Source: Pirellula sp.
Lineage (GTDB): Bacteria > Planctomycetota > Planctomycetia > Pirellulales > PNKZ01
Reading direction: 5' to 3'
Assembly: GCA_013822735.1 (NCBI GenBank)
Contig: PNKZ01000001.1
Span: 62,001-126,000, forward strand
DNA: 64,000 nucleotides
In this document: positions 13,620 through 37,254 of the stretch, piece after piece
Layout of the letters: each line of letters begins with the position of its first letter
How positions within the stretch are numbered: position 1 is the stretch's first letter
Notes under the pieces: model-generated
What the model was told of the DNA's origin: nothing
The model's input: only the letters and a program-made list of their open reading frames with translations
Database searches by the model: none
Program-made: the position numbers and the translations under genes

Positions 13620-14258
13620 CGCGCACTCGACGGAACAGCTTCGTCAAGGGAAGTTTTGGCCGGCCAAATCTGCTCTGGAATTTGGGCCGGCCGATTCGCG
13701 ACAATACGGCGTGATTCGTTGCGCCGTCTTAGCCCACGGCGAGTCGCCGGGGGCAATTGAGCGCGGTGGATAGCCCCACGGTGTGCATCGCCGTGGCAAG
13801 GAGAACCCCGTGCTTCGCCTCCGTCTTATTCACAGTAGCATTGGCGATCGGCCCCCTCATCCGTCCTGCGGACACCTTCTCCCGCGAGGGGAGAAGGGAG
13901 TAGGGACGGGGTTTTCGATGGTCACGCGAAATCGACGTAAGTCCTGCGCACTAAATCATCGAAATGCGCACAACGGACCCCTCGGAGTGCGCGTCGGAGC
14001 GCTTACCAACAAGGGAGCGCACTACGCGCTCGGCGCTGTGCGCACGGGGCAGGGGACTGCTGGAGGACTTACGTCGATTTACGGCGCGGCGAGCGGCTAC
14101 ATTTGCCGTCGGCGGCGCTCTGCGATCGGAACGCTCCGCTACGGAGCGCGCAAGGCGACCGAATTCGCGCACTTCGCCCAACAGGGCGTCGGGCGCACTG
14201 CGCACGAAAATGTCGTCGGCGCGCAGCCAATAGTGCGGTGCGCGCACGATGCGCGCAG
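13620..14258. repeat. Composite intergenic repeat block A (inverted relative to block B)
   Basis: This gene-free stretch after the isomerase stop is homologous, in opposite orientation, to 29290-29880. Matching parts in order: 13662-13691 (28 of 30 identical to the complement of 29828-29857); a CGGCGTGATTCG segment at 13707-13718; a clamp-like CCTTCTCCC hairpin region near 13865-13895; the 152-bp TIR unit 13929-14080; an exact 44-nt match 13979-14022 with 29526-29569; and an exact 25-nt match 14189-14213 with 29335-29359. Block A has about 115 bp of extra sequence near 13735-13850. It holds no convincing gene; a degenerate frame on the minus strand reads IFVRSAP as in block B. Confidence 0.85.
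13929..14080. repeat. 152-bp unit with perfect 16-bp terminal inverted repeats
   Basis: The ends are AAATCGACGTAAGTCC (13929-13944) and its exact complement GGACTTACGTCGATTT (14065-14080). The inside is rich in TGCGCA/GTGCGC. It has the outline of a MITE or structured-RNA element. The counterpart in block B is 29468-29619. Confidence 0.75.
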
Positions 14259-14286
14259 TAGCCGGCGCGTCGTCGCGAATGAAGCA

Positions 14287-15924
14287 TTACTTCCGCGGCG
14301 TCGTGCTGACTGCCGGAGCGAGCGCGCCCGTGCGGCGCGCCCACTCGTCCCATTCTTGGGAAAGCGAGGCGACGAGTTCCGGATGCTGCATCGCCAAATC
14401 ATTCGTCTCGCAGGGATCTTTGCCGACGTCGTACAGTTCCCACGCCGCGGCGGTCGGGAATCGTTTGCCCCAGACGAGTTTCCACGGCGCCTTGTGGATG
14501 GCACGGGCTCCTTCGTGCTGATAACACAAGGCTCGCGGCGGCAGCGCGGTGCCCGACCTCAAGAGCGGAGCGAGGCTCGCACCTTCCATCGGTTGCACGG
14601 CTCTGTCGCTCCGAACTTGTGGATACTCGGCGCCGCAAAGTTCGACGAGCGTCGGCATGATGTCCATGACGTGCGCCGGATCGCGTACCCAACGTCCGGC
14701 CCCTTCGATTCCCTGCGGCCAGTGCACGATGAGCGGCGTGGTGATGCCTCCCTGATGCGTAAAGTGCTTGTAGAGGCGAAACGGCGTGTTGCTCAGGTTG
14801 GCCCAGGCCGAGCCGTAGGCGGAGTGCGTATGCGGGCCGCCGATCGTTGGCAATGCGGGGCCTGCGTGCAGCGTGGTCGTGCCGCGGCGCGATTCCCCGT
14901 CGAAGCCGAAGGGTCCCCACTCGTAGCAAGCGCCGTTGTCGGAGAGGAGCAGAATGAGCGTGTTGTCGTATGTGCCGGTCGCACGCAACTGCGCGACGAT
15001 GCGACCCATCCCTTCGTCGACATGCCGGACCATCGCCGCATACACGGCCATGCGATAGGCGAGGTCCTCGCGATGATCGGCGGGGAGCGAATCCCAGGCG
15101 GGGTTCGGGCGGCCGGAATAGCCGTTGGCAATGGCATCGTTCTGTTCGACGGGCACGAGCGAGCGCTCCGTCAGCTTCCAACCATCATGATCGACGAGGC
15201 CGAGTTGCCGCATGCGCGCGAAACGTTCTGCGCGCAGCACGTCCCAGCCGCGGCGATACGTTTCCACGAGCGGCGCGACCGTTGCGGCCGGAGCTTGAAT
15301 CGGGAAGTGGGGGGACGAATGGGCGAGATACAAGAACCACGGCTTCTTCTCGGCTTGGGCCTGACGAATGAACTCGCTCGCGTAATCGCTGAACACGTCG
15401 GTGGCGTAGAACTTGTTCGGGTCGACCGCCAACTCCGGGCGGCGTCCTTCCGGCAGGCGCGCATACTTCGCGGCGTCCCATTGATCCTGCGAGTGCCCCA
15501 TCGTGTAGCCGAAGAACTCGTCGAAGCCGCGCGACGTGGGAACGGCCTTCGGTCCGCCGCCGACGTGCCACTTGCCGACGGCGTAAGTGCGGTAGCCCGC
15601 CGCGCCAAGGACTTCCGCGAGCGTCACGCAGCGGTCGTTCAGTTGGCCGCCGAAGTTGGGAATGCCTGCTTGTCCAGGATGCAAGCCGGTGAGGAGCGAC
15701 GCGCGGCTCGGGCAGCAACGCGCGGAGTTGGTCATCGCCGTGAAACGAAGGCCTTCCTGACCGAGTCGATCGATGTGCGGCGTCGGAATTTCGCCGCCGT
15801 AGCAACCCAGATCGCTGAAGCCGAGATCGTCGAGCAGCACGAGCAACACGTTCGGGCGTTCGACGGCCGAGGCGTGGCCGCTCCAGAGAATCGCGGCGAC
15901 GAAGAAATACGCGAACGATTTCAT
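14287..15924 (-). CDS. Secreted arylsulfatase-like sulfatase
   Basis: A 545-residue enzyme with a short signal peptide (about 1-20). It has metal-binding LDDLGFSD, the activation motif ARCCPSRASLLTG (Cys70 the formylglycine precursor, with a second Cys directly after it), GKWHVGG and SDNGA. Length and the CCPSR motif resemble arylsulfatases of the AtsA type (S1_4). The C-terminal LYDVGKDPCETNDLA segment is conserved. The gene is alone on the minus strand between repeat block A, which starts about 30 bp beyond its stop, and the divergent polymerase IV gene. Confidence 0.9.
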   Translation of the reverse strand: MKSFAYFFVAAILWSGHASAVERPNVLLVLLDDLGFSDLGCYGGEIPTPHIDRLGQEGLRFTAMTNSARCCPSRASLLTGLHPGQAGIPNFGGQLNDRCVTLAEVLGAAGYRTYAVGKWHVGGGPKAVPTSRGFDEFFGYTMGHSQDQWDAAKYARLPEGRRPELAVDPNKFYATDVFSDYASEFIRQAQAEKKPWFLYLAHSSPHFPIQAPAATVAPLVETYRRGWDVLRAERFARMRQLGLVDHDGWKLTERSLVPVEQNDAIANGYSGRPNPAWDSLPADHREDLAYRMAVYAAMVRHVDEGMGRIVAQLRATGTYDNTLILLLSDNGACYEWGPFGFDGESRRGTTTLHAGPALPTIGGPHTHSAYGSAWANLSNTPFRLYKHFTHQGGITTPLIVHWPQGIEGAGRWVRDPAHVMDIMPTLVELCGAEYPQVRSDRAVQPMEGASLAPLLRSGTALPPRALCYQHEGARAIHKAPWKLVWGKRFPTAAAWELYDVGKDPCETNDLAMQHPELVASLSQEWDEWARRTGALAPAVSTTPRK

Positions 15925-16050
15925 ATGCGGAGGGGGCTCGATGTTCTGAAGGGGAGACGCGAATTGCCGTCAGTATATTGCGGGCCGATCCGTTTTGCGC
16001 CGGTGCGGTCTCGCCGAATTGGCTATCATACGATGCATGAGGAACGACAG

Positions 16051-17229
16051 ATGATTCTTCACGTCGATATGGATGCATTCTACGCCTCGGTCGAGGAGCG
16101 CGACGATCCCCGGCTCGTCGGCAAGCCGGTTGTGGTCGGCGGCACGGCCGAAGGTCGGGGCGTCGTTGCGGCGGCGAATTACGTCGCGAGAAGGTTCGGC
16201 GTGCATAGCGCGATGCCGGCGGTCACGGCGCGGCGTCTCTGTCCGCAGGCCGTGTTTCTGCCGGTGCGAATGCGACACTATGCCGAGATCTCGCAGCAGA
16301 TCCGCGCCATCTTCGAGCAATACACGCCGCTGGTCGAGCCGCTCTCGCTGGATGAGGCGTTCCTCGACGTCACCGGTAGCGAGCACATGTTCGGTTCGGC
16401 CGCCGAGATCGGGCGTCGCATCAAGCAGCAAATTCTCGACGAGCTTCGGCTGGTAGCTTCCGTCGGCGCGGCGCCGAACAAGTTTGTGGCGAAGATTGCC
16501 AGCGACGTGCACAAACCCGACGCGCTCGTGTTGGTCGCACCAAGCGAGGTGCAGGCGTTTCTCGATCCCTTGCCGGTCGGACGCATTTGGGGAGTCGGCA
16601 AGGTGACGAACCAAGTGTTCGAACGATTCGGCATTCGGACGATCGGGCAATTGCGCGCCTTGCCGCAGGAGACGATCGCCGGTTTGTTCGGCTCGAGCGG
16701 CGAGCATTATTGGAAGCTGGCCCACGGGATCGACGACCGGCGCGTCGTGCCGGATCGCGAGGCGAAGTCGATTTCCAACGAGACCACGTTCGCCGAAGAT
16801 ATCGACGACAAGGAATCGCTGCGCGCTTGGCTGTTGGAACTGGTCGAGCAAGTCGGACGCCGGCTGCGTCGTCACGGGTTGAAGGGGCGCACCGTGGAGC
16901 TGAAAGTGCGGTTCGCCGACTTTCAGACGATCTCACGTTCGCAAACACTGACGGAGCCGACCAACGTGACCGACGAGCTTTGGCAGGCCGCGGTGGAACT
17001 GCTGACTAAGCGGTTGCCGGCCGGGCATTTGCCGGTGCGCTTGTTGGGAATGGGGGTTACCGGCTTAGAAACGCAACCGACGCAAGGGCTGCTCTTCGAC
17101 GATGAGGAGCGGCAGAAGCAGCGACAACTGGATAATGTGGCGGACCAGATCAAGGAGCGGTTCGGCGGCGGCGCGTTGGGACGCGCGAGCGGGCTCGTCC
17201 ACGAAGCGCGCCGCAAGCCGAGGCGATAG
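16051..17229 (+). CDS. dinB: DNA polymerase IV, Y-family translesion polymerase
   Basis: A 392-residue error-prone polymerase that copies past damaged bases. Catalytic acids are Asp6 and Asp8 in HVDMDAFYASVE, and Asp101/Glu102 in LSLDEAFLDVTGS. The little-finger region is present and QGLLFDDE near the C-terminus is a likely sliding-clamp-binding motif. The frame stays open far upstream (to 13783), but homology begins here; GAGGA at 16039-16043 is 7 nt before the ATG. A slightly longer start at 16033 is possible. It sits among sulfatases with no apparent functional link. Confidence 0.95.
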   Translation: MILHVDMDAFYASVEERDDPRLVGKPVVVGGTAEGRGVVAAANYVARRFGVHSAMPAVTARRLCPQAVFLPVRMRHYAEISQQIRAIFEQYTPLVEPLSLDEAFLDVTGSEHMFGSAAEIGRRIKQQILDELRLVASVGAAPNKFVAKIASDVHKPDALVLVAPSEVQAFLDPLPVGRIWGVGKVTNQVFERFGIRTIGQLRALPQETIAGLFGSSGEHYWKLAHGIDDRRVVPDREAKSISNETTFAEDIDDKESLRAWLLELVEQVGRRLRRHGLKGRTVELKVRFADFQTISRSQTLTEPTNVTDELWQAAVELLTKRLPAGHLPVRLLGMGVTGLETQPTQGLLFDDEERQKQRQLDNVADQIKERFGGGALGRASGLVHEARRKPRR

Positions 17230-17287
17230 ATCGGCAAATATTCCAGCGGTCCGGCGCATCGAAGATTCCCAGACATCAACCGTCTCT

Positions 17288-18817
17288 ATGAAATACAACG
17301 CCATGATTCATTACGCCCTTCGACATTCGTTGCCGTTGCTCTTGCCGATGATTCTCCTTTGCGGAATGTCGACGGCAATCGCCGCGCCGCCGAACATCAT
17401 TCTGATGATGGGAGACGATCACGGGTGGGAGGAAACCGGCTATCACGGCCACCCGCACGTGAAGACGCCCGTACTCGACGAGATCGCGGCGACGGGGCTG
17501 CGGCTCGATAACTTCTATGCCGGGCACCCGAGCTGCTCGCCGACGCGCGGCAGCTTCCTCACCGGTCGACATCCGAATCGCTACGGCACGTTCGCGCCGG
17601 GCTGGTCGATACGGCCGGAAGAAATCACCACGGCCCATCAGCTCGGCAAGGTCGGCTACCGTTGCGGCCACTTCGGTAAGTGGCACGTCGGCGCCGTGAA
17701 GGCCGGCTCTCCCGTCAACCCCGGCGCGATGGGCTTTCACCAGTGGGTTTCGCACGACAACTTCTTCGAGCTGAATCCTTCGCTCTCGCGCAACGGCGGA
17801 CCGCCGGAAGTGTTTCAGGGCGAAAGTTCGGAAGTGATCGTGCGTGAGGCGATCCGCTTCATCGACGGCGCGAAGCAGCAGCAGAAGCCGTTCTTCACGA
17901 TCATCTGGTTCGGCTCGCCGCACGAACCGTATAGCGCGCTCCCCGCCGACTTGGCGCTCTACGACGACCTGCCGGCGAAATACAAGAAGAACGTAAAGCT
18001 CACGTCGAACGAAACCGGCGGGCCGGTGACGCGCCCGCAAGGAGAGGTGCTGCGCGAGCGCTACGCCGAGATCACGGCGATGGATCGCGCCATCGGCATC
18101 TTACGCAAACATCTCGCCGAGCAGGGGCTGCGTGATGACACGTTGCTCTTCTATTGCGGCGACAACGGTACTTCGCCCGACGCGGCACTCGGCTTTCCGC
18201 ATCGCGGCATGAAGGGGCAAGTTTACGACGGCGGCGTGCTGGTGCCGGGGCTCATCGAATGGCCGGCGCGCATTGCGAAGCCGCGCACAACGACCGTGCG
18301 CGTGTCGACGAGCGATCTGCTCCCCACCATGTGTGCGCTCACCGGCACTTCGCTGCCTGATCGCGTTCTCGACGGAGTCGACGTAAGCGGCGTGTTGGAC
18401 GGCCGTCTTACGGAGCGGCCCAATCCGCTCTACTTTTGGGAATACAACACAGGCAGGGTGACGCGCGCGAAGCCGGAGCCGTATATCGATCCGGAACTGC
18501 AAAAGGGAACGACGCCGCTCGTGAAAAAGGCGGGCGGCAAGGCCACTCGCGACTTCAACAACTTCCGCCAACCTCCGGTGACGGACGAAGACTATCTCGG
18601 CCCGCGGGCCGTGATCGACGGCAGGTACAAACTCGTGGTCCACGAAAGCAAGGCGGGCGAACCGCGCTACGAGGTGTTCGACCTGGAAGCCGATCCGGCG
18701 GAGAAGTTGAGTTTGCTCGGAAAAGATCCGGCGCTCGACCGGCGGCTGCAAGAGAAGCTCAAGTCGTGGCAGCAGTCGGTGCTGCAAAGTTTGACCGGCG
18801 CGGATTATCGGAAGTAG
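17288..18817 (+). CDS. Secreted sulfatase
   Basis: A 509-residue S1-type sulfatase with a signal peptide (about 10-33). It has metal-binding GDDHGWEE, the activation motif PSCSPTRGSFLTGRHPNRYG (Cys83), GKWHVG and CGDNGTS near the second metal site. The conserved C-terminal YEVFDLEADPAEKLSL segment closes the fold. The ATG at 17288 begins just before the signal peptide; an in-frame ATG at 17303 is an alternative. It lies 58 bp after dinB and 67 bp before the next sulfatase on the same strand. Linkage specificity is not readable. Confidence 0.9.
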   Translation: MKYNAMIHYALRHSLPLLLPMILLCGMSTAIAAPPNIILMMGDDHGWEETGYHGHPHVKTPVLDEIAATGLRLDNFYAGHPSCSPTRGSFLTGRHPNRYGTFAPGWSIRPEEITTAHQLGKVGYRCGHFGKWHVGAVKAGSPVNPGAMGFHQWVSHDNFFELNPSLSRNGGPPEVFQGESSEVIVREAIRFIDGAKQQQKPFFTIIWFGSPHEPYSALPADLALYDDLPAKYKKNVKLTSNETGGPVTRPQGEVLRERYAEITAMDRAIGILRKHLAEQGLRDDTLLFYCGDNGTSPDAALGFPHRGMKGQVYDGGVLVPGLIEWPARIAKPRTTTVRVSTSDLLPTMCALTGTSLPDRVLDGVDVSGVLDGRLTERPNPLYFWEYNTGRVTRAKPEPYIDPELQKGTTPLVKKAGGKATRDFNNFRQPPVTDEDYLGPRAVIDGRYKLVVHESKAGEPRYEVFDLEADPAEKLSLLGKDPALDRRLQEKLKSWQQSVLQSLTGADYRK

Positions 18818-18884
18818 TTCGCCGCTCGATGTTCGTTCGTTTCTCCGCCGTTTTTCTCACGCACCCCATTCGGAAAGTCGCCTC

Positions 18885-27708: not shown

Positions 27709-29166
27709 CTACTTCGCCTTCTTTTTCTTCTTCGCGGGTTTTGCGTCGGCGGGCGAGGCGGCTCCGGCCTTCGCCGGATCGGCCGGTTGCGGAATGTATG
27801 CGCCGGTCGACTTGCGCCACGCGTCGAGGTCGGCGTGCATCCGGTCGGCGATTTCGTGTTGCGACGTCGCCAAGCTGGTCCGCTCGCCGAGGTCGTCATG
27901 CAGGTTGTAGAGTTCGCGGGCGCCGTCTTCGTAAAACTCGATCAGCTTCCAATCGCCCTGGCGCATCGCCGAGCCGGGGGCCCAGGTCGATCCGTGGTAA
28001 TGCGGATAGTGCCAGAACAACGCCCGCTCGGGAAGCGATGCGCCGCGCAAGAGCGGCGCGAAGCTCCGACCGTCGAGATGTTGCTGCGGCAGCAAAGGAG
28101 CACCGGCGAGTTCGAGCAACGTCGGGAAAAAATCGGTGCTCATCACCGGCGCGTCGCACACCGCCGGCGATTTCACGATGCTTGGCGCTCGCACGATCAG
28201 CGGCACGCGAATCCCTCCTTCATACAGCCAGCCTTTGCCGCTGCGGAGCGGCAGGTTGCTCGTCGGGCCGGGCTCCGCTTTGGTGCAGAGTCCGCCGTTG
28301 TCGGAGAAGAAGATGACGATCGTGTTCTTCGTGAGCCCCAGCGCCGCAAGCTTCTCGTCGATGCGGCGCACCCCTTCGTCGAGCACTTTGATCTCGCAGG
28401 CATAGGCCGGATCGTCTTGCACGAGTCGCGATTGTCCCTGGTGCTCCGGCTGCGAAGCCGGCTCGACCTTCGGCAGCTGCGCGGCCTTGGCCGTGAAGTG
28501 GGCGATGTGCTTCGGATGCGGCACGATCGGCGTGTGCGGCTCGTGGTAGCCGAGGAACATGAAGAACGGCCGCGCGGCGTCGCGCTCGCCGAGGAACTTC
28601 ACGGCCGAATCGGTGAGCCGGTCGCCGACCGTCGGATCTTTGCCCGTCGCCCCGAGCGAGCCGTCTTCCACGACGACTTCGAATCCTTGCTCGTGCGGAC
28701 CGAAGTCTTTGCCGCCGAGGTGCCACTTGCCGGAGTAGAACGTTTGATAGCCTTGAGACGCCAACGCTTCGGCGATCGTCGTCTCTTCCATCGCCAGCTC
28801 GCGCCGCGTCGGCTGCGTGGTCAAGCGCGGATGGTCGAGCCTCAGGCCGGGGATGTAGTCGGTGACGCCGGTGCGCACGGGCACTTTGCCGGTCATAATG
28901 CTGCCGCGCGTCGGCGAACAGACCGCGCCGGCGGTGTAAGCCTGCGTGAACCGAACCCCTTCGCTCGCGAGCCGATCGATGCTGGGCGACTCATAGAACT
29001 TCGCCCCATAACAACCAAGATCGGCCCAGCCGAGATCGTCGGCCAAGATGAAGACGACGTTGGGGCGCGTCGGCCCGTCGGCGGCCTGTGCCGCGATCTG
29101 CGGGCCGAACGCCACGAGCGCGGCAATCGCCGGAAGAAGGGAGCGAAGTCGGGAAACGAATCGCAT
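27709..29166 (-). CDS. Secreted sulfatase with Lys-rich C-terminus
   Basis: A 485-residue S1 sulfatase: signal peptide (about 1-28), ADDLGWADLGCYG, activation motif GAVCSPTRGSIMTGK (Cys83), GKWHLGG, FSDNGG and C-terminal LYNLHDDLGERTSLA. It ends with an exceptional basic tail (KPAKKKKKAK). An in-frame ATG at 29187 would add seven residues; neither start has a clear ribosome binding site. It is the first gene of a minus-strand pair, with repeat block B upstream, so its promoter must lie close to or within that repeat. Confidence 0.9.
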   Translation of the reverse strand: MRFVSRLRSLLPAIAALVAFGPQIAAQAADGPTRPNVVFILADDLGWADLGCYGAKFYESPSIDRLASEGVRFTQAYTAGAVCSPTRGSIMTGKVPVRTGVTDYIPGLRLDHPRLTTQPTRRELAMEETTIAEALASQGYQTFYSGKWHLGGKDFGPHEQGFEVVVEDGSLGATGKDPTVGDRLTDSAVKFLGERDAARPFFMFLGYHEPHTPIVPHPKHIAHFTAKAAQLPKVEPASQPEHQGQSRLVQDDPAYACEIKVLDEGVRRIDEKLAALGLTKNTIVIFFSDNGGLCTKAEPGPTSNLPLRSGKGWLYEGGIRVPLIVRAPSIVKSPAVCDAPVMSTDFFPTLLELAGAPLLPQQHLDGRSFAPLLRGASLPERALFWHYPHYHGSTWAPGSAMRQGDWKLIEFYEDGARELYNLHDDLGERTSLATSQHEIADRMHADLDAWRKSTGAYIPQPADPAKAGAASPADAKPAKKKKKAK

Positions 29167-29289
29167 GGGCAGGCCTGATTGTTTCAAGGGTGGAAGGAGG
29201 TGCTATTTTCGTCGGCGACTGCAGACCGGTCAAATGAACGACGACTCATGACATGCGCCGCGGCGCGGAGCAGGGAAGGTCGCTTTTTC

Positions 29290-29880
29290 CTGCGCGCAAC
29301 ATGCGCCGTCTCCACAATTTGCTGCGCGGCATCCACATTTTCGTGCGCAGTGCGCCCGAGATACTTTTCCGCGAAGTGCGCAGCGGCGACTCCTTTGCGC
29401 ACTCCGCGGCGTCGCTCGCCGGCCGCGGCGCGCCGTTCTCGGAAAAGGTTGCAGGTCGCCGCGATCGAAATCGACGTAAGTCCTCGAAGCGCTCGTTGCC
29501 CCGTGCGCACTAAGTCAAACCGGGTGTGCGCTCCCTTGTTGGTAAGCGCTCCGACGCGCACTCCGAGGGCCCCGTGGTGCGCATTTGGAGGAATTAGTGC
29601 GCGGCACTTACGTCGATTTCGGAGCGCGAGTTTTAGCCCTCTGCGATTCGCCCGTCGTGGGCCAAGCCGACTTGCCGTGGAGCGGTTCGTATTGTTGGGA
29701 CGGAGAGGTCTTGAGCGACGCACGGAGAAATATCCTCTTCTTATCTCTCCCCTCGCCCCTTGCGGGAGAGGGGCCGGGGCTGAGGGGGCTATAGGCACAG
29801 CGAATCACGCCGCATTCTCCCAAACCTGCCGGCCCAAAATCCAGAGAAGATTTGGCCACCCTCCAGATGCGCAGAGTGCG
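29290..29880. repeat. Composite intergenic repeat block B (inverted copy of block A)
   Basis: Reverse-complement homologue of block A, with the same order of parts: the GGCCAAATCT segment (29828-29857), the CGGCGTGATTCG segment (about 29800-29811), a gene-free clamp-rich stretch with the hairpin CCCCTTGCGGGAGAGGGG (about 29756-29773), the TIR unit (29468-29619), and the TGCGCAC-rich end with an exact 25-nt match at 29335-29359. On the plus strand a frame from 29301 reads IFVRSAPEIL, matching IFVRSAPDAL on the minus strand of block A; this may be leftover coding sequence or only DNA similarity. No supported gene. Confidence 0.85.
29468..29619. repeat. 152-bp unit with inverted termini, block B copy
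   Basis: AAATCGACGTAAGT (29468-29481) is the exact complement of ACTTACGTCGATTT (29606-29619). Its length equals that of the unit in block A. The interior shares an exact 44-nt stretch with block A (29526-29569). Confidence 0.7.
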
Positions 29881-29984
29881 CGCCAAGACGAGACGAAGAA
29901 AGGGAGGAATGGGGAATGAAAAGGGGATATTGGAGATAAGAGGGAAAGCGAGCCGGGAGCGTGAGCGACCGGAGTCGAATGTAG

Positions 29985-30165
29985 TAGGCACGTTCCGTGT
30001 GCCGTCGCCCGTGGCAGATTATGAGTTGCGCTGCGCGTGTTCCGTGCGCAACGCCAAGCGTCATACAACGTCACCCTCATCCGGCCTCACGGCCACCTTC
30101 TCCTAGCGGGAGAAGGAAATTAACACAGCTCCCAGTGGGAGAAGGAAATCAACACGGAGCGCATC
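29985..30165. repeat. Palindromic intergenic repeats before a sulfatase gene
   Basis: Three elements lie here: GGCAC-GTTCCGT-GTGCC near 29988; a hairpin CCTTCTCC-TAGCG-GGAGAAGG at 30096-30116 preceded by CCCTCATCCGGCC, also present in block A near 13850-13890; and an imperfect direct repeat GGGAGAAGGAAATTAACAC (30108-30126) / GGGAGAAGGAAATCAACAC (30137-30155). These look like dispersed REP-type sequences. No gene is supported between 29880 and 30284. Confidence 0.6.
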
Positions 30166-30283
30166 GTTTCCCGCATTGGTACCAACGGGAGCTTGCTCCC
30201 CGCGCGAGCAGAAGAGAAGATGCACGCGCCGGCCATCGCGGCAGCCGATGGTTCGCAGTTGTTTTTCCGTCTGCGCTCGAGGA

Positions 30284-31651
30284 ATGATCGTGCGAATTCT
30301 CTCCGCTCCGCGAAGTTCGGCTTGGGGCCTTGCCGCACTGTTGCTGCTTCCGGCGTTTGCTTTGGCTGCGCCCCCTGCGAAGCCGAACATCGTCGTCATC
30401 CTCGCCGACGATCACGGTCGGGCCGATTACTCGGCCTACGGCACAAAGGATCTGCGGACGCCGCATATCGATCGGATCTTTCGCGAGGGGATGACCTTCG
30501 ACAACTTTTACGCCAACAGTTGCGTCTGTTCGCCGACGCGAGCGGCGCTGCTCACCGGGCGCTATCCCGATCGGGTCGGAGTGCCGGGCGTCATTCGTTA
30601 TTTGCCGGACGACTCGTGGGGTTATCTGTCGCCCGAAGCGGTGATGTTGCCGCAGGTGTTGAAGAAGGCCGACTACCACACGGCGCTCGTCGGCAAGTGG
30701 CACTTGGGGCTCGAAAGTCCGAACACGCCGAACGAGCGCGGGTTCGACCATTTCCACGGCTTCCTCGGCGACATGATGGACGACTATTGGACGCATCTGC
30801 GGCACGGGCAGAATTTTATGCGCCGTAACTCTGACGTGATTGAGCCCGAGGGGCATGCGACCGATCTGTTCACCGATTGGGCCTGCGACTACATCGCGGA
30901 GCGGGCCGCGGGCGAGCAGCCGTTTTTCCTTTACCTCGCTTACAACGCGCCGCACGGCCCGATCCAGCCGCCGGAGGCGTGGTTGAAGAAAGTGACGGAG
31001 CGCGAACCGCAGGCGAGTCCGACGCGGCAGAAGCTCGTCGCTCTGATCGAACACATGGACGACGGCATCGGCCGGGTGCTGGCGACGCTCGCTCGGCTCA
31101 ATGTTGCCGACAAAACGATCGTGGTCTACACGTCCGACAACGGCGGCCTGCTCGGCGAAGGTGCGAACAACGGCACGTGGCGGAGCGGCAAGACCCACAT
31201 GTATGAAGGAGGGCTGCGCGTGCCTGCGGCCGTGCGCTGGCCGCTTGTCATTACCGGCGGCGAACGGACCGATCGCATTGCTCTGACGATGGATCTGTTC
31301 GCCACCTGCTGCGAGGCGGCGGGCGCGGACCTGCCGAAGGAGTGCGACGCGAAGAGCTTTTTGCCGACGCTGCTCGGAAATGGACAGGATCCTTCCGAGC
31401 GCGATCTGTACTTCTGTCGCCGCGAAGGGGGCGCGAACTACGGCGGCAAGACGATCGAGGCGCTGATTCGCGGGCCGTGGAAACTGTTGCAAGACAGCCC
31501 CTTCGCGCCGCTGGAGCTTTACAACTTGCAAGTTGATCCGCAAGAAACGACGAATCTGGCGCAGAAGGAAAAGGGAATCTTTCGCGACCTCTCGGCGGCG
31601 CTGCGCAGGCAGATACAACTCGGCGGCCGGACGCCGTGGCAGAAAGAGTGA
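30284..31651 (+). CDS. Secreted sulfatase
   Basis: A 455-residue S1 sulfatase: signal peptide (about 1-29), ADDHGRADYSAYG, activation motif SCVCSPTRAALLTGRYPDRVG (Cys82), GKWHLG and TSDNGG. It keeps the C-terminal LYNLQVDPQETTNLA segment and ends near the shortest family length. The start at 30284 is chosen because the signal peptide begins there; the open frame to 30176 runs through the intergenic repeats and is not credible as protein. Confidence 0.9.
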   Translation: MIVRILSAPRSSAWGLAALLLLPAFALAAPPAKPNIVVILADDHGRADYSAYGTKDLRTPHIDRIFREGMTFDNFYANSCVCSPTRAALLTGRYPDRVGVPGVIRYLPDDSWGYLSPEAVMLPQVLKKADYHTALVGKWHLGLESPNTPNERGFDHFHGFLGDMMDDYWTHLRHGQNFMRRNSDVIEPEGHATDLFTDWACDYIAERAAGEQPFFLYLAYNAPHGPIQPPEAWLKKVTEREPQASPTRQKLVALIEHMDDGIGRVLATLARLNVADKTIVVYTSDNGGLLGEGANNGTWRSGKTHMYEGGLRVPAAVRWPLVITGGERTDRIALTMDLFATCCEAAGADLPKECDAKSFLPTLLGNGQDPSERDLYFCRREGGANYGGKTIEALIRGPWKLLQDSPFAPLELYNLQVDPQETTNLAQKEKGIFRDLSAALRRQIQLGGRTPWQKE

Positions 31652-31658
31652 AGAGCGA

Positions 31659-31693
31659 AGACTGGAGACGGGAGACTGGAGACTGGAGACTGG
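31659..31693 (+). repeat. Five tandem copies of a 7-bp unit, AGACTGG
   Basis: AGACTGG, AGACGGG, then AGACTGG three times, directly after the sulfatase stop. It is a simple-sequence repeat able to change length by slippage. A related motif (CCCAGTCTCCC) occurs inside the kinase gene near 24215. Confidence 0.8.
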
Positions 31694-31808
31694 GAGCTTG
31701 AATCGCTTTCGAACCAAATGCACAATGTGATGCGCGGAAGGATCGTACGGGGCGGGGGCGTGGTTGATACTTTCTCGCAGCTTCCCTACTAAGAACGCTT
31801 TTTTGATC

Positions 31809-32270
31809 ATGGCCGGCGAACTCGCGGCGACACCGACGGCGGAAGAGCTGCATCGCGAAGCGCAGGCGAAGCATCATCGCCTTATGCTCGTGATCGCCGG
31901 CGCGGTGATTGCCGGTACGTTCCTGCTCGAAGTATTGCCCGACCAACGCGTGGCCTTACGCGGCTTCACGAGTTACCCGCTGCCTGAGTTGTGCGGCAGC
32001 CGCGTGGCGTTCGACGTCGAATGTCCCGGCTGCGGACTGACGCGCAGCTTCATTTGGGCCGGCCGCGGCGAGTGGCTGCGAGCTTTGCAGATGAACCGCA
32101 TCGGGTTTCTGATGATGCTTGCCGTCGTCGGGCAGATTCCGTATCGCATCTTGATGCTGCGGCACTACGAACGGGGCGAAATGCCGGAACACGCCTGGCC
32201 GCGGCGCCTCGGCTGGATGCTGATTGCACTCTTGTTCGGCAATTGGGCGCTGAAGATTTGCGGCGTCTGA
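31809..32270 (+). CDS. DUF2752 membrane protein
   Basis: A 153-residue protein with three hydrophobic segments (about 26-42, 97-117, 135-147) and the family hallmark CPGCGLTRSF (Cys72, Cys75) after the first segment. DUF2752 proteins are small bacterial membrane proteins of unknown function, often in Bacteroidetes, Actinobacteria and Planctomycetes; the CPGCG pair could bind metal or be redox active. The ATG at 31809 is preferred to 31764 because the family length fits. It converges with the HupE-like gene (23 bp between stops). Confidence 0.85.
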   Translation: MAGELAATPTAEELHREAQAKHHRLMLVIAGAVIAGTFLLEVLPDQRVALRGFTSYPLPELCGSRVAFDVECPGCGLTRSFIWAGRGEWLRALQMNRIGFLMMLAVVGQIPYRILMLRHYERGEMPEHAWPRRLGWMLIALLFGNWALKICGV

Positions 32271-32293
32271 CTGCGGTCGGAAAGCTGTGATCG

Positions 32294-33541
32294 TTACGGC
32301 ATCAAGCCGAGGCCGAATAGCCGATCGAGCAGCCAGCCGAGCCCGCAGAGCGCGATCGCGCCTGATAAGACGCGCTGGGCGGTGAGACCATGCCGCCATT
32401 GCCGCATCAGCATCACCGGCACGTAGAGTGCGCCGACGATCGCCAACTGCCCCGCTTCGACGCCGACGTTAAACGACAAGAGCGCCCGCACCACGCCGGT
32501 CGACGGCAGCCCGAGCTCGCGCAATTGGCCGGCGAAGCCGAAGCCGTGGATCAGGCCGAAGGCGAACGTCAGCATCCAGCGCCGGCTTCCGGCGGCGTCA
32601 CCCGGGCGAATCCAAAAGTTTTCGACGGCCGTGTAAACGATCGTCGCGGCGATGGCGATCTCGACCCAATCGCGGTTCACTTGCACGACTTCGAGCGTGG
32701 CGAGAATGAGCGTGATGGTGTGGGCCACGGTGAACGACGTGACGATCTTGATTAAGTCGCGAAACCGGCTGACGACGATTAGCGCGAGCAAGAATAAGAT
32801 GTGGTCGTAGCCCAGGAAGATATGCTCGACGCCGAGCACGAAAAACTGCCGCGTCGTCCGCCAGGCGGAACTTTCGGCGGTGCGACGATGCGGATTCGCT
32901 TCGTCGGCAGAAGCGTCAGCCGTCGCCGTTGCGGTCGCCGCAGCCGATGGGGTCGGCACGGGCGCTCGGAAGCCGGTGTCGTAGAAATAGTCGGGCTCAA
33001 ATTCACGGAAGATCACTTCCTCGTCGCGCCCGGGCTGCGAGATGGCGCCGATCACGCTGTGCTGCGAGCCCACGAAATGGAAGAAGCGAAACTCCAGCCA
33101 GACGTCTTCCGGCATTTGCTCGAGCGGCTTGCGAAACGTAAACGGAATGAGCGACTTGGCCGCGTGATAGTCTTGTTCGGCGATCGAGTCGCCGACGTCG
33201 GGCGGCCAGCCGACCGGCGCGGCAGTACCCCAATCGGCGAGGTCGCCGTTGATTTCAATGGGGACATACTCGCGGAGGAAGTCGACGAATGCCGGCGCTT
33301 TCGCCGCGAGCTCCGCGCGTGTGAGCCGGTGATCGCCGTCGGCGTCGAGCGCCGGCACGATCTTCACCAGCGTCACCACATCAAACACGAACTCCGTCTC
33401 GAGCGCTTCGGGCGTGAGGCGGATGCGCAAGTAGCTCGTGTCGGGATTGTGCGCGTGCGACGTGGCGGGCATCAGCCAGTACGCGACCAGCGCGAGGAAG
33501 CCGGCCGTGCCGCGGAGCAGCTTTTGCGAAGCCGTCATCAC
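32294..33541 (-). CDS. HupE/UreJ-like membrane protein with exported N-terminal domain
   Basis: A 415-residue protein. After a signal peptide (about 10-30, starting the mature part at HNPDTS) there is an extracytoplasmic domain with an EF-hand-like loop DADGDHRLTRAE (66-77, Ca-ligand pattern D-x-D-x-D ... E). An Ala/Thr-rich linker at about 205-215 leads to the HupE/UreJ_2 membrane domain: GVEHIFLGYDHILFLLAL, SFTVAHTITLILA and FGLIHGFGFAG. HupE/UreJ relatives move nickel or cobalt, but this long form with an N-terminal domain is common in genomes without nickel enzymes nearby, so the role is open. The stop of the next gene lies 2 bp from its start, indicating one operon. Confidence 0.85.
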   Translation of the reverse strand: MMTASQKLLRGTAGFLALVAYWLMPATSHAHNPDTSYLRIRLTPEALETEFVFDVVTLVKIVPALDADGDHRLTRAELAAKAPAFVDFLREYVPIEINGDLADWGTAAPVGWPPDVGDSIAEQDYHAAKSLIPFTFRKPLEQMPEDVWLEFRFFHFVGSQHSVIGAISQPGRDEEVIFREFEPDYFYDTGFRAPVPTPSAAATATATADASADEANPHRRTAESSAWRTTRQFFVLGVEHIFLGYDHILFLLALIVVSRFRDLIKIVTSFTVAHTITLILATLEVVQVNRDWVEIAIAATIVYTAVENFWIRPGDAAGSRRWMLTFAFGLIHGFGFAGQLRELGLPSTGVVRALLSFNVGVEAGQLAIVGALYVPVMLMRQWRHGLTAQRVLSGAIALCGLGWLLDRLFGLGLMP

Positions 33542-33542
33542 G

Positions 33543-36500
33543 CTACTCGCCGCCCGTCGTCGCGGCGGGCTGATACTTGATCCACATCGGCGAGACCCAC
33601 ACGAGCTCGCCGTCGGTCTGTTCGCCGCGCACGTAGTAGTAGCTGGTCTTGCCGGCTTCCGGTTGCGGGTCGGTCCACTTCAGCTCGATTTCGTTCTTCG
33701 TTTCGCACGGCAGTGGAATCTCGACGTCGTCTTTCACCAGCGTGATCTTGGCAAACGGCGCGGTGCCGACGAGCTTCAGTTCTAAAGTCGGCGCGGCCGT
33801 GGTCGTGAACTCGTCGCCGAGCATGTACGTTTTGCCGTCCGCTTTGCAGCGGTACTCGGCGACGATGTTATCTGTCGAGCCGTAGATGTGCCGTTCTTTG
33901 ATCGCCTTGATGAGCGACTCGCGCGAGTTGCTCTCGGCATACACGTGGGCATAGCTGATGTGCGTCGAAAGGTGATCGCTCGAACATTGAAACGCGAGCC
34001 GGTAGCCCTTTTGCAGCGCCAGGTTCACGAAGCCCTTCGGTTCCCAACCGCCGATCGAGTAATCGGCCGTCGGGCAGCGCGGAGCGCCGGGCCGTTCGTA
34101 GTTCTGGCGATCGCCTTGGTAGATCTCCACCATCGGCTCGACTTCCGGGTCGTTGTCGCGCCAGTCGGTACCCATGCTCGTCGCGCTGGTGTGCGAAGCG
34201 CACACGCCGCCGAAGTGCTTGAGATACTTATAAAGCATCTGTGTGTCGGGCGCATGCCCTTGGTAATCGCGCTCGGTGATCGGCAGCCGGGGCAGCGTGC
34301 GGATGCCGCGCTCGGCGAACATCACGTTGCGATGCCCTTCCGGATAACGCACGCTTCGCTCGTACGTAAACGGCGGTTCGAAGCGGCCCGGTATGCGGAA
34401 AGCGTCGGTCGTCTTTTGCGTGAGCCACCAGGTGTATTCGCGGCCGGCGCCGTTGTCGTGGTCGGCGTTGCCGAGCCATTCCATTTGCGAGACGTCGATC
34501 GCGTAGCGCCACATATCTTCCAGCGGGCCGTCGTTGGCGCCGTCGCCGCTGATCTCGGTATGTCGATGGTACTCGCCGCGAATAAGTTGCAGCTTGCGAT
34601 CGCCGACCGTCACCGTTTGAGTGCGGCAGCGTTCGACGGCGGCCCGTTCGGCGAGCGTCGCTTCCGAAGGCGTCCCCTTGCCGCTCGGCGGAAACTGCGC
34701 GGGCTTCAATTGTCGCTCTTGCATCTTCGCCAGCGGCGAGACGATACGCGTCGCGAAGACGTCATTGTCAAACGGATCGGCGGCGGCGCTCGGAGCGACG
34801 TCGTTTCGTTCGGCAAACCGATCCTGCCGGTGATCGCTCGAGTGAACGACGACCAGATCGCCGCCGGGCATCACGGCCAGGCTCGGCACGTTGTACATCA
34901 GGTTATCGGAGTTCGGCAGCAAGATCGGGCCGAGCCACTTCGTGCCGTCCCAACAGACGGCATGGCTGAGCCAGAGCGAGCCGAGCATCGGGAAGCGGAA
35001 GTCGTTTTGCCGGGAACGACAGAGGAGCCAAATCCGTCCTTGGGCGTCGCACGCGATACGGGCCAAGTTGTTGTAGGCGAGGTTGCGCTCAAGCTCGGCG
35101 TTGCGTGCCTGCTGCGGCGTTTCCCCTTGCGGCTCGATCGGTGCGACCCGTTGGTTGTTCACGCGCTTGCGCGGTTGCGCGCCGGGCAGCTTGCCGACGA
35201 ACGCCGCCGCCGGTTCTTTCCACTCGCCGGCCTCGCGCACGATGAGGCCGATCTGCCGACCGCGGTAGAGCGGATTGCCGCCGTTGTCGTAAGGTCCGGA
35301 GTCTTTGCCCCACGACGGATCGCCGAGCTCGTAAGAGATCCAGAGCGCGCCGGCTTTGTCGTATGTCAGGGCAGGGCGGGCTTCGTAGTCGGGGGAATCG
35401 GCAGCGGCCAAGATCGGTTGCGGGGCACTGTCGACGTTCGAGCCGAGCGGCGTGAACTCGCGGACGAAGATGTCGTAGTCTCCCTTCTCGTACGAGTCCC
35501 AAGCAATGGCCACGCGACCATCGGCCGCCGCGGCCACGGCCGGAGTCCAGCAATTGCGACTCTGCTCGCTCACGATACGCTCGGCGCTCCACGAGCCGTC
35601 GGCTTTTTGGGCGGCGGACGTTTGATGTCGCTCGACGATCTGAAACCGCCCGTCGCGCACCGCTTGCCAAGCGAGCCAAACACGGCCTTGCGCGTCGGCG
35701 GCGAGCGCCGGGTTGATGTCGCTTCCCGCGTTCTGCGATTGATTGACGATCTCGCCCAACTCGGCTTTACCCTGTTCGGCACCTTGCACGGTGCGCGAGA
35801 GAATCTCGAAGTTGGCGTCCTTCTTCGGATAAGTGACGTTCTGCGACCAAGCGACGACGGCGCGCCCTGCGGCGTCGACGGCGACGGAGCACTTGTAGAT
35901 GTCGCTTCCCCCTTCGGTCACCGCGACCGGCTCGCTCCACTTCCCCTGCTGCATCGTGCGGAGCCAAACTTGGTCGCCGCCGACGGGATTGGCCAAGAAG
36001 GCGAAGTCTTTCGGCTCCTGCTTCCAGCCGCGACCGCTATTGGCAAACGACGGCGCGGCCCCTTCCGCTTCTTCCAGCGGCTTGTAGGCCGTGCGATCGC
36101 CGTGCGTGAAGCTCACGTAGGCGACGAAGACGGTGCCGTCTTTCGAAATCGCCGTCGACGGATAGTCGTCGTCGGTCGGTCCGTTGGTCAGCGGCGCGGC
36201 CGAGGCGGTCCGCTCGATCTCGACTTTGCCGTCGAGCTTCTCGATGATCTTGCCGTAGGTCAGCTCGGTGAACGTAAACTCAAATTCCCCTTGCGCCGTT
36301 TTCACGGTGATGGGTGTGTCGCGCTCCAATCCGGCCAGCGACACGACGACGCCGTTGTCGGCCATCGGCTGCTTGGCTTGCACGTTCTGTCGTTTCGCGG
36401 CGGCTGCGGCGGCTTTCTTCTGGTTGTTGCCGCGACCGGTCTGCGCGAGCGGTCGGGTCGACGCGGTCCAACCCTTCACGCCGTCGATCGCATCTCCCTT

Positions 36501-36701
36501 GGCGAATCGCCAGCCGCTAATGTGCGTCACCTCGCCGGCCGCCGGAGCGATCGTGCCGTCCCACTTAGTGGAACGTTCGTCGGTGAGCCCGAAGCGGATC
36601 CGCACACCGAGTTCCGCCGCCGCGGCTTGCGACGCGAGCAAGGAACCGAAGCCCGCGACGATCAACGCAACGGGTGCTAGGCAAAGGGAACTAAAACGCA
36701 T
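33543..36701 (-). CDS. Large secreted DUF3604/PHP-like protein with N-terminal propeller-type repeats
   Basis: A 1052-residue exported protein. A signal peptide (about 8-28, cleavage near AAAAEL) is followed by blades with repeated WLAWQAVRDG/VAIAWDSY/LWISYEL patterns to about 620, which look like a sialidase/BNR-type propeller. The C-terminal part matches DUF3604, a PHP-like metallo-fold: EYHRHTE (His712, His714), then ADHDNG (Asp747-His748-Asp749). Metal-dependent phosphoesterase activity is known for PHP domains but not shown for this family. The start at 36701 is set by the signal peptide, although the frame stays open to 37157. It is the first gene of an operon with the HupE-like gene. 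Confidence 0.82.
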   Translation of the reverse strand: MRFSSLCLAPVALIVAGFGSLLASQAAAAELGVRIRFGLTDERSTKWDGTIAPAAGEVTHISGWRFAKGDAIDGVKGWTASTRPLAQTGRGNNQKKAAAAAAKRQNVQAKQPMADNGVVVSLAGLERDTPITVKTAQGEFEFTFTELTYGKIIEKLDGKVEIERTASAAPLTNGPTDDDYPSTAISKDGTVFVAYVSFTHGDRTAYKPLEEAEGAAPSFANSGRGWKQEPKDFAFLANPVGGDQVWLRTMQQGKWSEPVAVTEGGSDIYKCSVAVDAAGRAVVAWSQNVTYPKKDANFEILSRTVQGAEQGKAELGEIVNQSQNAGSDINPALAADAQGRVWLAWQAVRDGRFQIVERHQTSAAQKADGSWSAERIVSEQSRNCWTPAVAAAADGRVAIAWDSYEKGDYDIFVREFTPLGSNVDSAPQPILAAADSPDYEARPALTYDKAGALWISYELGDPSWGKDSGPYDNGGNPLYRGRQIGLIVREAGEWKEPAAAFVGKLPGAQPRKRVNNQRVAPIEPQGETPQQARNAELERNLAYNNLARIACDAQGRIWLLCRSRQNDFRFPMLGSLWLSHAVCWDGTKWLGPILLPNSDNLMYNVPSLAVMPGGDLVVVHSSDHRQDRFAERNDVAPSAAADPFDNDVFATRIVSPLAKMQERQLKPAQFPPSGKGTPSEATLAERAAVERCRTQTVTVGDRKLQLIRGEYHRHTEISGDGANDGPLEDMWRYAIDVSQMEWLGNADHDNGAGREYTWWLTQKTTDAFRIPGRFEPPFTYERSVRYPEGHRNVMFAERGIRTLPRLPITERDYQGHAPDTQMLYKYLKHFGGVCASHTSATSMGTDWRDNDPEVEPMVEIYQGDRQNYERPGAPRCPTADYSIGGWEPKGFVNLALQKGYRLAFQCSSDHLSTHISYAHVYAESNSRESLIKAIKERHIYGSTDNIVAEYRCKADGKTYMLGDEFTTTAAPTLELKLVGTAPFAKITLVKDDVEIPLPCETKNEIELKWTDPQPEAGKTSYYYVRGEQTDGELVWVSPMWIKYQPAATTGGE

Positions 36702-36940
36702 GGGAGATACCCCGTGAAAAGATCGCAGCGAAATGTCGGCGGCGCCGGAGTCGACTAGGATTTGGCCCGCTCGGCAAACCGACGCGCACAGCCGCGATTT
36801 TATTCGTCCGGTCGGCTCAAAAGCCATGGAATTCCGCCTTCTTTCGCCCTCGGTTCGCGTGACGTGGCCGGCCAAAAACTTGCCTTGAATGTGCGAGGGC
36901 GAAACTCTAGTTTGCCGGATGGTTCTTTGGCAATTCAATA

Positions 36941-37045
36941 GTAGGCCGCCACTCCGTGGCGGCAGAGTGGTTCGCACCCGTCGCAGACGATGGCCATCGG
37001 TATCGACCGTGCCGGCCGCATTTCCGCCACGGAGTGGCGGACTAC
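36941..37045. repeat. Paired REP-like palindromes, GTAG-CCGCCACTCCGTGGCGG type
   Basis: GTAGGCCGCCACTCCGTGGCGG (36941-36962) and its complement at 37024-37045 differ at one position. Each arm is itself a palindrome (CCGCCAC-TCC-GTGGCGG). The pair resembles a REP doublet (REPIN) in layout. Confidence 0.75.
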
Positions 37046-37048
37046 TTT

Positions 37049-37254
37049 GACGTAAGTCTCGCCAACTCCGCCGCGCTTCCGCGCGACTTACGTCGACGGT
37101 AAGAAACGGCCTGCGCAGATAACTGGAGTTATCTGCGCACAACCCCAAAACCCACAAGGGGTGCGCAGATACGTGGAGTTATCTGCGCAGTGACAAACTC
37201 GGAGTCGACGTAAGTCGAAGAATGCTCCCCCTCGGTTTCTATGACTTACGTCGA
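37049..37254. repeat. Nested array of TCGACGTAAGTC and TGCGCAGATAACT inverted repeats
   Basis: Two inverted pairs of the core motif (GACGTAAGTC 37049-37058 with GACTTACGTCGA 37085-37096; TCGACGTAAGTC 37205-37216 with GACTTACGTCGA 37243-37254) flank two palindromes. The first, near 37111-37139, is TGCGCAGATAACT-GG-AGTTATCTGCGCA, perfect with 13-bp arms. The second, near 37161-37189, keeps 10-bp arms. A GC/AT-mixed spacer (AACCCC ... GGGGT) lies between them. Confidence 0.75.

Follow-up and report, generated by a model that had tools for sequence, protein, structure and literature searches.

A multi-copy intergenic repeat of paired, helically phased sites in Pirellula: a putative binding array whose cores differ between species

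Three repeat units in the window and their common plan

The window analysed here, a stretch of 64,000 nucleotides of a Pirellula sp. contig, contains three intergenic repeat units: A lies between convergent genes, B between the divergent genes of two sulfatases, and C between divergent genes as well. The original prediction had marked these regions by a 12-mer, whose six exact copies were all confirmed at 13932-13943, 14066-14077, 29471-29482, 37085-37096, 37205-37216 and 37243-37254; the spans of its two partners, each with one mismatch, were adjusted to 29605-29616 and 37047-37058. With at most two mismatches the 12-mer matches the window 17 times, whereas 100 shuffles gave 6.7 matches on average and never more than 16. 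The units comprise the following features:

Unit A, 13658-13705, plus strand: promoter-like segment (GGCCGGCCAAA, TGGAAT, 18 nt, GACAAT); the strict scanner calls no promoter
Unit A, 13929-13945, plus strand: outer site AAATCGACGTAAGTCCT, containing the exact 12-mer 13932-13943
Unit A, 13965-13992, plus strand: palindrome 1, 28 bp, TGCGCAC..GTGCGC
Unit A, 13993-14014, plus strand: conserved core K1, sense strand GTCGGAGCGCTTACCAACAAGG
Unit A, 14017-14044, plus strand: palindrome 2, 28 bp
Unit A, 14064-14080, minus strand: outer site, inverted copy, containing the exact 12-mer 14066-14077
Unit A, 14081-14270 (end approximate), plus strand: conservation continuing past type 1 on its 3' side (sense strand), with GCGC boxes
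Unit B, 29814-29861, minus strand: promoter-like segment (GGTGGCCAAA, TGGATT, GAGAAT); the strict scanner calls no promoter
Unit B, 29605-29616, minus strand: outer site, one mismatch
Unit B, 29556-29583, minus strand: palindrome 1, 28 bp
Unit B, 29532-29555, minus strand: conserved core K1
Unit B, 29504-29531, minus strand: palindrome 2, 28 bp
Unit B, 29471-29482, plus strand: outer site, exact 12-mer
Unit B, 29281-29470 (end approximate), minus strand: conservation continuing past type 1 on its 3' side (sense strand)
Unit C, 36866-36890, plus strand: promoter-like box GGCCGGCCAAAAA and TTGAAT, no clear -10; the scanner calls no sense-strand promoter
Unit C, 36921-36935, plus strand: leader GGTTCTTTGGCAATT, common to other type-2 units and to units of the sister species (G001)
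Unit C, 36940-37046, unstranded: GTAG-type REPIN of the GTAGTCCGCC family, a separate family, in the variable slot of the unit
Unit C, 37047-37096, unstranded: outer site pair 1, spacer 26 bp
Unit C, 37112-37139, plus strand: palindrome 1, 11+6+11 bp, TGCGCAGATAA
Unit C, 37140-37161, plus strand: conserved core K2, CAACCCCAAAACCCACAAGGGG
Unit C, 37162-37189, plus strand: palindrome 2, 28 bp
Unit C, 37205-37254, unstranded: outer site pair 2, spacer 26 bp

A and B are members of the same family (type 1, core K1; 40 copies by core pattern), and C to another (type 2, core K2). Both families follow the same plan, in which a promoter-like GGCCGGCC box is accompanied by outer 12-mer sites and by two 28-29-bp TGCG palindromes flanking the core. 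Among 27 type-1 elements extracted with at most two mismatches per outer site, 25 span 146 bp with the outer sites included, as do A and B, and two span 144 bp; total length is thus near-constant while the spacers between the boxes are largely unconserved. The equal 152-bp units originally outlined for A and B correspond to these 146 bp plus three flanking bases per side, but the repeated unit is larger. In type 1, conservation extends about 190 bp past one end, and a GGCC..GGCC-type box lies 170-270 bp past the other end in A, B and C. In region C, where the sites had been described as bracketing other palindromes, they form a distinct four-site element of 208 bp (37047-37254).

The core palindromes are 28 or 29 bp long in 183 of 186 cases, counted within a search range of 24-33 bp. 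Their arms and centres differ among K1, K2 and the third core type, K3, with the length still at 28-29 bp; in K2 the palindromes are laid out as 11+6+11 bp around a variable centre, and the arms of K1 and K3 are shorter.

Genome-wide copies and spacing of the sites

Across the 6.88-Mb genome (G000) the exact 12-mer occurs 94 times, against none for the reversed-motif control, and with at most one mismatch it occurs 279 times, against 12 for the control. In an unselected 1.464-Mb sample of this genome (980 called genes, 17 cores), all 23 exact 12-mers are intergenic, and 14 of 63 copies with at most one mismatch lie inside called genes. The predicted intergenic enrichment was therefore recovered, as was the preference for inverted pairing, since 65 of the 76 site clusters in the fetched loci hold at least two sites; the remaining 11 are single, so that the pairing is not invariable as had been claimed.

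Head-to-head pairs of 12-mers have almost invariant spacers. Among 96 pairs in the loci retrieved from two genomes, allowing one mismatch at most and spacers of 5-75 bp, 75 have a spacer of 15 bp and 19 one of 26 bp, with one pair each at 16 and 27 bp. The two main spacers are one helical turn apart. In REPINs of Xanthomonadaceae and Longilinea with the same core, by contrast, the spacers spread over 16-29 bp (45 pairs among the matches listed, in loci fetched using a 13-28 bp pattern). Because of this difference, a protein array on duplex DNA is favoured over RNA or single-strand hairpins, and hairpins are disfavoured as the working form since their loop lengths would be nearly fixed. Of the options offered in the original prediction, a dispersed binding site fits best, as a putative assignment, given the 15- and 26-bp spacers, the 28-29-bp palindromes and the near-constant lengths. 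Helical phasing by itself is no proof of binding.

We consider it distinctly unlikely that the units are REP/REPIN-like elements, recognised as single-strand hairpins and mobilised by a tyrosine transposase of the Y1 (HUH) kind, for instance a RAYT. The resemblance to GTAG- or CGTC-tagged REPs and REPINs (BIME-like dimers) lies in a short palindromic motif that is mostly arranged head to head, with dozens to hundreds of patchily distributed copies; the units share the REPIN trait of head-to-head dimers in intergenic DNA and possibly a GTAA loop. GTAG-tagged REPINs of Pseudoxanthomonas, Lysobacter and Longilinea even have the core CGACGTAAGTCG in common with the 12-mer. On the other hand, a GTRG tag within 9 nt is found in none of 39 planctomycete pairs (not de-duplicated), compared to 43 of 44 Xanthomonadaceae/Longilinea pairs among the matches listed, and the fixed 15- and 26-bp spacers are embedded in an array of 150-210 bp with other conserved palindromes. 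The 12-mer stem, by reading, is just 3-4 bp long, which falls short of the 8-9 bp stem (loop 4-5) listed for CGTC REPs in Table 1 of PMC3733652, a paper whose relevant passages also report GTAG repeats from the PVC superphylum. Of the eight Y1 matches in G000, the one at C15:127002 has a type-2 unit roughly 1.7 kb away, slightly beyond the 1.5-kb flanks examined. Those flanks, at 8 Y1 loci in G000 and 16 in G001-G003, contain no 12-mer with at most one mismatch, and the REPINs on both sides of the Y1 gene at C9 (L035) belong to the other, GTAGTCCGCC, REPIN family.

Lone sites with two mismatches occur near three Y1 loci (L032, L033 and L038). The non-planctomycete matches named above were rejected as members of the family, being GTAG-type REPINs in 43 of 44 pairs among the matches listed, and served as a control. 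Genome G057, with 51 exact 12-mers, was likewise rejected as a second host, as the 22 sites that were read belong to an unrelated repeat of about 150 bp. Genome G002 contains no exact 12-mer.

The original prediction also suggested a small non-autonomous mobile element. In its classical form this would be a MITE, the remnant of a DDE transposon that has undergone deletion, keeps terminal inverted repeats and is mobilised in trans. The units resemble MITEs in being short, with terminal inverted repeats and no gene, and the inverted ends, the length of about 150-210 bp, the copy number, the patchy distribution and the species-specific families are all in line with this origin. Nevertheless, we judge it improbable. 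In 32 + 18 elements of G001, no direct repeat of 3-9 bp (offsets 0-7) was enriched at the ends other than the GGCCGGCC end, and no linked transposase gene was found among the Y1, integrase and resolvase loci examined. Moreover, the internal boxes are more conserved than uniform decay of a copy would leave, and place and orientation are common to two species.

The promoter-like box and the folding of the palindromes

The promoter-like box has a preferred side. In G000, TTGGCCGGCC is found within 500 bp on the expected side of 24 of 27 K2 units and 19 of 31 K1 units, and on the opposite side of 0 of 27 and 1 of 31, respectively. The leader of G001, TCTTTGRCAATT, likewise precedes 20 of 28 K3 units on the expected side and none of the 28 on the other. 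On a promoter score running to 12, 26 of 49 boxes reach 8 or more, the boxes having been selected for part of the -35; so do 35 of 443 intergenic pieces taken at random and 11% of shuffled sequences. The same promoter-like box stands upstream of an RpoD-like gene. Judged from these sequences, the box suggests transcription into the array.

Could the units then be multi-copy non-coding RNA genes, with the GGCCGGCC box as a sigma-70 promoter, palindromes that fold in the RNA, and a last outer hairpin acting as terminator? The box pointing into the array speaks for the structured RNA of the original prediction, and so does co-variation of the palindrome arms, where both sides changed in 61 cells, compared to 24.1 after shuffling; co-varying arms are equally expected of a folded strand. 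Beyond the arms, there is a tendency for every half-site of a unit to change along with the others. At one A/G position the palindrome arms agree in 36 of 36 cases and the unpaired box0 in 31 of 36. Among 25 type-1 units the covariation is not convincing, and at two varying pairs the sense strand has more C-A mismatches than U-G pairs. For 39 K3 cores, RNAalifold prefers pairing between the two palindromes to pairing within each. In A, B and C, strict scans detected neither a promoter on the sense strand nor a terminator where the units end. Rfam 15 has no match in the window at the gathering score, and in nine further loci it gives three matches up to E = 5, all outside the units. Together with the nearly fixed loop lengths, these results make an RNA gene an unlikely, if still serious, explanation. 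The three Rfam matches outside the units are an SRP RNA and a sub-threshold Acido-Lenti-1 in L196, and a sub-threshold gntR-DTE in L025.

Sigma-70-like promoters are also a feature of the Correia elements (CREE) of Neisseria, which passages of PMC10969869 describe as small intergenic repeats with inverted ends and an IHF site. In the units, unlike in the elements as described there, the promoter-like box is external to the inverted sites and directed inwards, several site pairs are phased, and no target duplication was found in the G001 elements. Searches of the open-licence PMC literature with unit sequence strings returned only unrelated papers by title and abstract start, and among the matches listed for REPIN/RAYT, Planctomycetes repeats, Pirellulales MITEs and Correia/BOX elements none, judged in the same way, concerns this element.

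Place, orientation and core type in the sister species

Comparison with G001 shows that part of the units occupy the same places in both species. Of 11 flanking-gene ends of G001 that have an orthologue in the unselected G000 sample, five carry an element at the same end in G000 and none at the opposite end; the five correspond to four distinct G000 spacers, and the other six ends are without an element. Of the comparisons between the species, only this one uses unselected G000 sequence, as all G001 loci and most G000 loci were chosen for the motif. Orientation relative to the shared gene is the same in 12 of 13 element pairs, or 14 of 15 if two pairs read by hand are included, and yet the core types differ in all 13 pairs. 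For example, L207 and L066 have both flanking genes in common and both contain a unit, with a K3 core in one and a K2 core in the other. In one further orthologous pair (L190/L076), the core is present in G001, and a bare 12-mer pair stands alone in G000. We infer common descent of the shared places, which could alternatively stem from insertion hot spots. Within the window, the gene adjoining block A has no clear orthologue, and the relatives of the M90 gene adjoining block C in G001-G003 are just 55-57% identical and lack the element there.

BOX elements have a variable number of modules. PMC3049150 describes them in Streptococcus pneumoniae as intergenic, almost restricted to close species, in some cases expressed, and parasitic in the authors' judgement. 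The units are similarly intergenic and nearly confined to close species, but differ from BOX elements in their fixed lengths and spacings and in a place that is common to two species while the core type differs.

Some neighbourhoods are rearranged between the two species. The two neighbour genes of G000 spacers L051, L045 and L074 lie at two different G001 element loci, and one G001 unit joins the neighbours of two G000 units. Such breaks would be expected if the units were sites for a tyrosine or serine recombinase, as the 28-bp palindromes might also suggest: an 11+6+11 bp layout with a variable centre resembles that of Xer-type sites, and in res, Xer/dif and Tn7 ends paired half-sites of about 28 bp are set at helically phased distances, much as in the units. 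We regard this explanation as highly improbable. None of 49 integrase or resolvase loci (the integrases of G000 and G001, and 20 of 21 resolvase matches of G000-G002) has a site pair, a core or the GGCCGGCCAAAA box, and three have a lone 12-mer with one mismatch; the units thus differ from those systems in having no linked recombinase gene at these loci, and also in their dozens of scattered copies. The shorter arms of K1 and K3 depart from the K2 layout. Homologous recombination or misassembly explains the synteny breaks equally well, G001 being a metagenome assembly of 570 contigs in which misjoins at repeats could mimic rearrangements, and the G001 side of the split-spacer comparison consists of motif-bearing loci, among which halves without an element could not show.

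The best reading, to which we give somewhat less than even confidence, is a multi-copy putative binding array with concerted turnover of its cores. The repeats would be copies of a non-coding intergenic module acting as duplex DNA, with paired half-sites for one or two dimeric proteins, one putative protein on the TCGACGTAAGTC half-sites and the other on the TGCGYRC half-sites. Pair distances one helical turn apart would place the proteins on the same DNA face, so that they might form one complex over about 150-210 bp. The cores may differ by species because the sites track a binding protein with drifting specificity, or because copies overwrite each other by conversion, and recombination between copies may account for some of the synteny breaks. 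A bolder version, which we think conceivable but unlikely, envisages about 80 genome-wide nucleoprotein stations (extrapolated from 17 cores in 1.464 Mb): promoter-driven, helically phased arrays at conserved intergenic places, whose cores would be rewritten in place by copying when the specificity of the partner protein changes.

Repeats between bacterial genes are usually interpreted as REP hairpins or dead MITEs. Here, many copies keep place and orientation between species though their sequence type differs, and their sites are helically phased. If confirmed, the units would make the concerted evolution of dispersed bacterial DNA sites accessible to study, and they might offer a way into gene regulation or nucleoid organisation in Planctomycetota.

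Copies, placement and anatomy of the units

All of the 12-mer sites that the original prediction had listed are present in the window. The Pirellula sp. genome itself (G000) carries the exact 12-mer 94 times, 46 on the forward and 48 on the reverse strand, versus no occurrence of the reversed motif; when up to one mismatch is allowed, there are 279 copies versus 12 for the reversed control. The motif had been predicted to occur always in inverted pairs, and this needs softening: when sites with up to one mismatch are merged within 250 bp in the fetched G000 loci, 65 of 76 clusters hold two or more sites and 11 are single. The expected intergenic enrichment was borne out in an unselected 1.464-Mb G000 sample (980 genes; an in-house gene finder classes 84% of the sequence as coding), where 23/23 exact 12-mers lie outside genes. 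With up to one mismatch, 49 of 63 are intergenic and 14 fall inside called genes, while the reversed control gives 0 exact and 3 one-mismatch hits. Every core in this sample (9 K1 and 8 K2) is intergenic.

The units of G000 fall into two families, type 1 (blocks A and B, core K1) and type 2 (block C, core K2), while loci of the sister species (G001) contain K1 plus a third family, K3/K3b. On one strand the cores read GTCGGAGCGCTTACCAACAAGG (K1), ACCCACAAGGGG (K2) and TACTTAGGAATTAAGG (K3), each with GCG close behind. Among 27 extracted type 1 elements, the length from outer site to outer site is 146 bp in 25 and 144 bp in 2; their boxes are conserved, the spacers between them are largely unconserved, and conservation extends about 190 bp beyond one end. 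Type 2 is laid out as an outer pair, the palindrome TGCGCAGATAA-6-TTATCTGCGCA, the core, a second palindrome and a further outer pair. The slot between the array and the promoter-like box beyond one end houses other repeats, including a GTAG-type REPIN in block C. The copy of this REPIN family (GTAGTCCGCCNCTCCGNGGCGGA) within unit C spans 36940-37046 of the window, and the family also lies on both flanks of a Y1 (RAYT-like) gene at locus L035 (G000:C9:188361). Around block B two sulfatase genes point away from the block, and a third adjoins block A (window 14290-15924, 27712-31648).

Spacing, arm concordance and a probable protein array on duplex DNA

In a search of fetched G000 and G001 loci for head-to-head 12-mers (up to one mismatch, spacers of 5-75 bp), the spacer was 15 bp in 75 of 96 pairs and 26 bp in 19, with one pair each at 16 and 27 bp. 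Of the 186 core palindromes counted inside extracted cores, in a search at 24-33 bp that left out those cut by the extraction window, 183 measure 28 or 29 bp. The 45 same-core REPIN pairs of Xanthomonadaceae and Longilinea among the matches listed have spacers over 16-29 bp, a spread that may truly be wider as their loci came from a scan for 13-28 bp spacers. An 11-bp step, near-constant lengths and variable centres are the needs of proteins bound to duplex DNA, and RNA loops are free in length. The intergenic palindromic repeat therefore probably acts as a protein array on duplex DNA.

A folded RNA is one alternative. Among 39 K3/K3b cores, 61 cells in the helix arms are changed on both sides, versus 24.1 in shuffles, and the covariation score is 0.178 versus 0.090, a value reached by 0/500 shuffles. 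In the same cores neither changed pairs (8 versus 7.2) nor further pair types (14 versus 15.5) rise over shuffles, and RNAalifold pairs arms across different palindromes instead. In the 36 of 38 units with all five boxes readable, the arms agree at an A/G position in 36/36 within each palindrome and across palindromes, and the unpaired box0 in 31/36; at a C/T position the figures are 30/36 and 25/36 inside the two palindromes and 30/36 for box0. L164, one of the two omitted units, has palindromes of unlike class, yet the arms match inside each. Such concordance is compatible both with a folded strand and with a protein whose half-sites are alike in class, and cannot separate the two. At the two varying pairs, the sense strand has C-A mismatches in 5 and 10 of 32 cases and U-G in only 1 and 0, which argues against a sense RNA.

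In habit the units are similar to REPINs, Correia elements and BOX elements, but the array is unlike REPs in tag, stem and spacer, each of which failed its test. Nor was the Y1 linkage expected of REPs seen in the 1.5-kb flanks of Y1 loci in G000-G003; no target duplication was found at the ends of the tested G001 elements, and Rfam gave no match to units in the window and nine loci. We therefore describe the array as a variant form of intergenic palindromic repeat.

Promoter-like box and leader

The GGCCGGCC box lies on one side of the unit only and is present in all three window blocks. Within 500 bp of G000 units, TTGGCCGGCC occurs on the expected side, where the box points into the array, in 24/27 K2 and 19/31 K1 units, and on the opposite side in 0/27 and 1/31. 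The exact box is rarer in G001 (GGCCGGCCAA in 10/28 K3 and 2/6 K3b units, TTGGCCGGCC in 5/13 K1), partly because it often reads GTGGCC there, and it is on the opposite side in none of the K1, K3 and K3b units searched. The leader TCTTTGRCAATT accompanies 20/28 G001 K3 units on the expected side and 0/28 on the other.

Behind the box comes TGGA or TTGA, and many copies then have GATAAT, GAGAAT or GAAAAT about 16-18 nt further along. Against TTGACA/TATAAT, 26 of 49 boxes in G000 and 16 of 42 in G001 score at least 8 of 12, versus 35/443 and 24/443 random intergenic pieces and 11% and 21% of shuffled boxes, a comparison biased toward the boxes, which were selected for carrying part of the -35. 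In blocks A, B and C, strict scans detected neither a promoter on the sense strand nor a terminator where the units end. A search of 57 genomes for the exact box pattern gave 51 occurrences in G000, 73 in G001, 4 in G003 and one in G047, with none in the other 53. The box GGCCGGCCAAAA with TTGAAC and ATAAT also precedes an RpoD-like gene in G001 (L356:1500-1606), whose reading frame runs off the end of the locus and scores below family cut-offs; the box may thus be a promoter element in general use across the genus.

Shared places, different cores and distribution

For eleven flanking-gene ends of G001 elements, the unselected G000 sample contains an orthologue (identity of 65% or more, coverage of 60% or more). 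An element lies at the same end in 5 (four distinct G000 spacers, since L138 and L227 meet one spacer), at the opposite end in 0/11, and is missing in 6; orientation is equal in 4 of the 5. When the comparison took in all fetched G000 sequence, a large part of which had been selected for the motif, 13 elements of G001 could be paired with a core in G000 no more than 2.5 kb from the shared gene; orientation is equal in 12 of these pairs (exception L124/L044). Two hand-read pairs (L188/L019 and L222/L086) bring this to 14/15; L190/L076 was omitted, having no core on the G000 side. Orientation relative to neighbouring genes in co-directional spacers has no clear tie (15 versus 10 in G000, 10 versus 9 in G001).

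The core type is unlike in 13/13 element pairs. Because K3 is absent from the fetched G000 loci and K2 from the fetched G001 loci, only four G001 K1 units could match, and all four stand opposite K2. L207 and L066 have both flanking genes, the box and the outer-site layout in common, with cores K3 versus K2. The two neighbour genes of G000 spacers L051, L045 and L074 lie at two separate G001 element loci, and G001 unit L202 brings together neighbours of two G000 units, a count that covers motif-bearing G001 loci only; repeat misjoins in the fragmented G001 metagenome assembly could possibly explain these splits.

Counts of the exact 12-mer across 97 genomes of the order are 94 in G000, 116 in G001, 51 in G057, 13 in G003, 11 each in G012 and G080, 10 in G075 and fewer in the remainder, with zero in G002 of the same genus. 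The K1 core pattern (up to three mismatches) occurs 40 times in G000, 17 in G001 and once each in G003 and G049, and is missing from 93/97. The G049 match, at three mismatches, looks like chance; the other boxes are absent from its flanks. G057, of another family, was rejected as a second host: the 22 of its 51 exact 12-mers that were examined belong to an unrelated repeat, about 150 bp long and inverted at its ends (L139-L158). In G012, G080 and G075, also of another family, the 10-11 exact copies per genome exceed the reversed control. Farther afield, GTRG-tagged REPINs of Pseudoxanthomonas, Lysobacter and Longilinea (L229-L308) have a core, CGACGTAAGTCG, common to Gammaproteobacteria and Chloroflexota among the matches listed, and three IMG/VR viral contigs (L334-L336) carry CGACGTAAGTC and its inverse around a 13-bp spacer.
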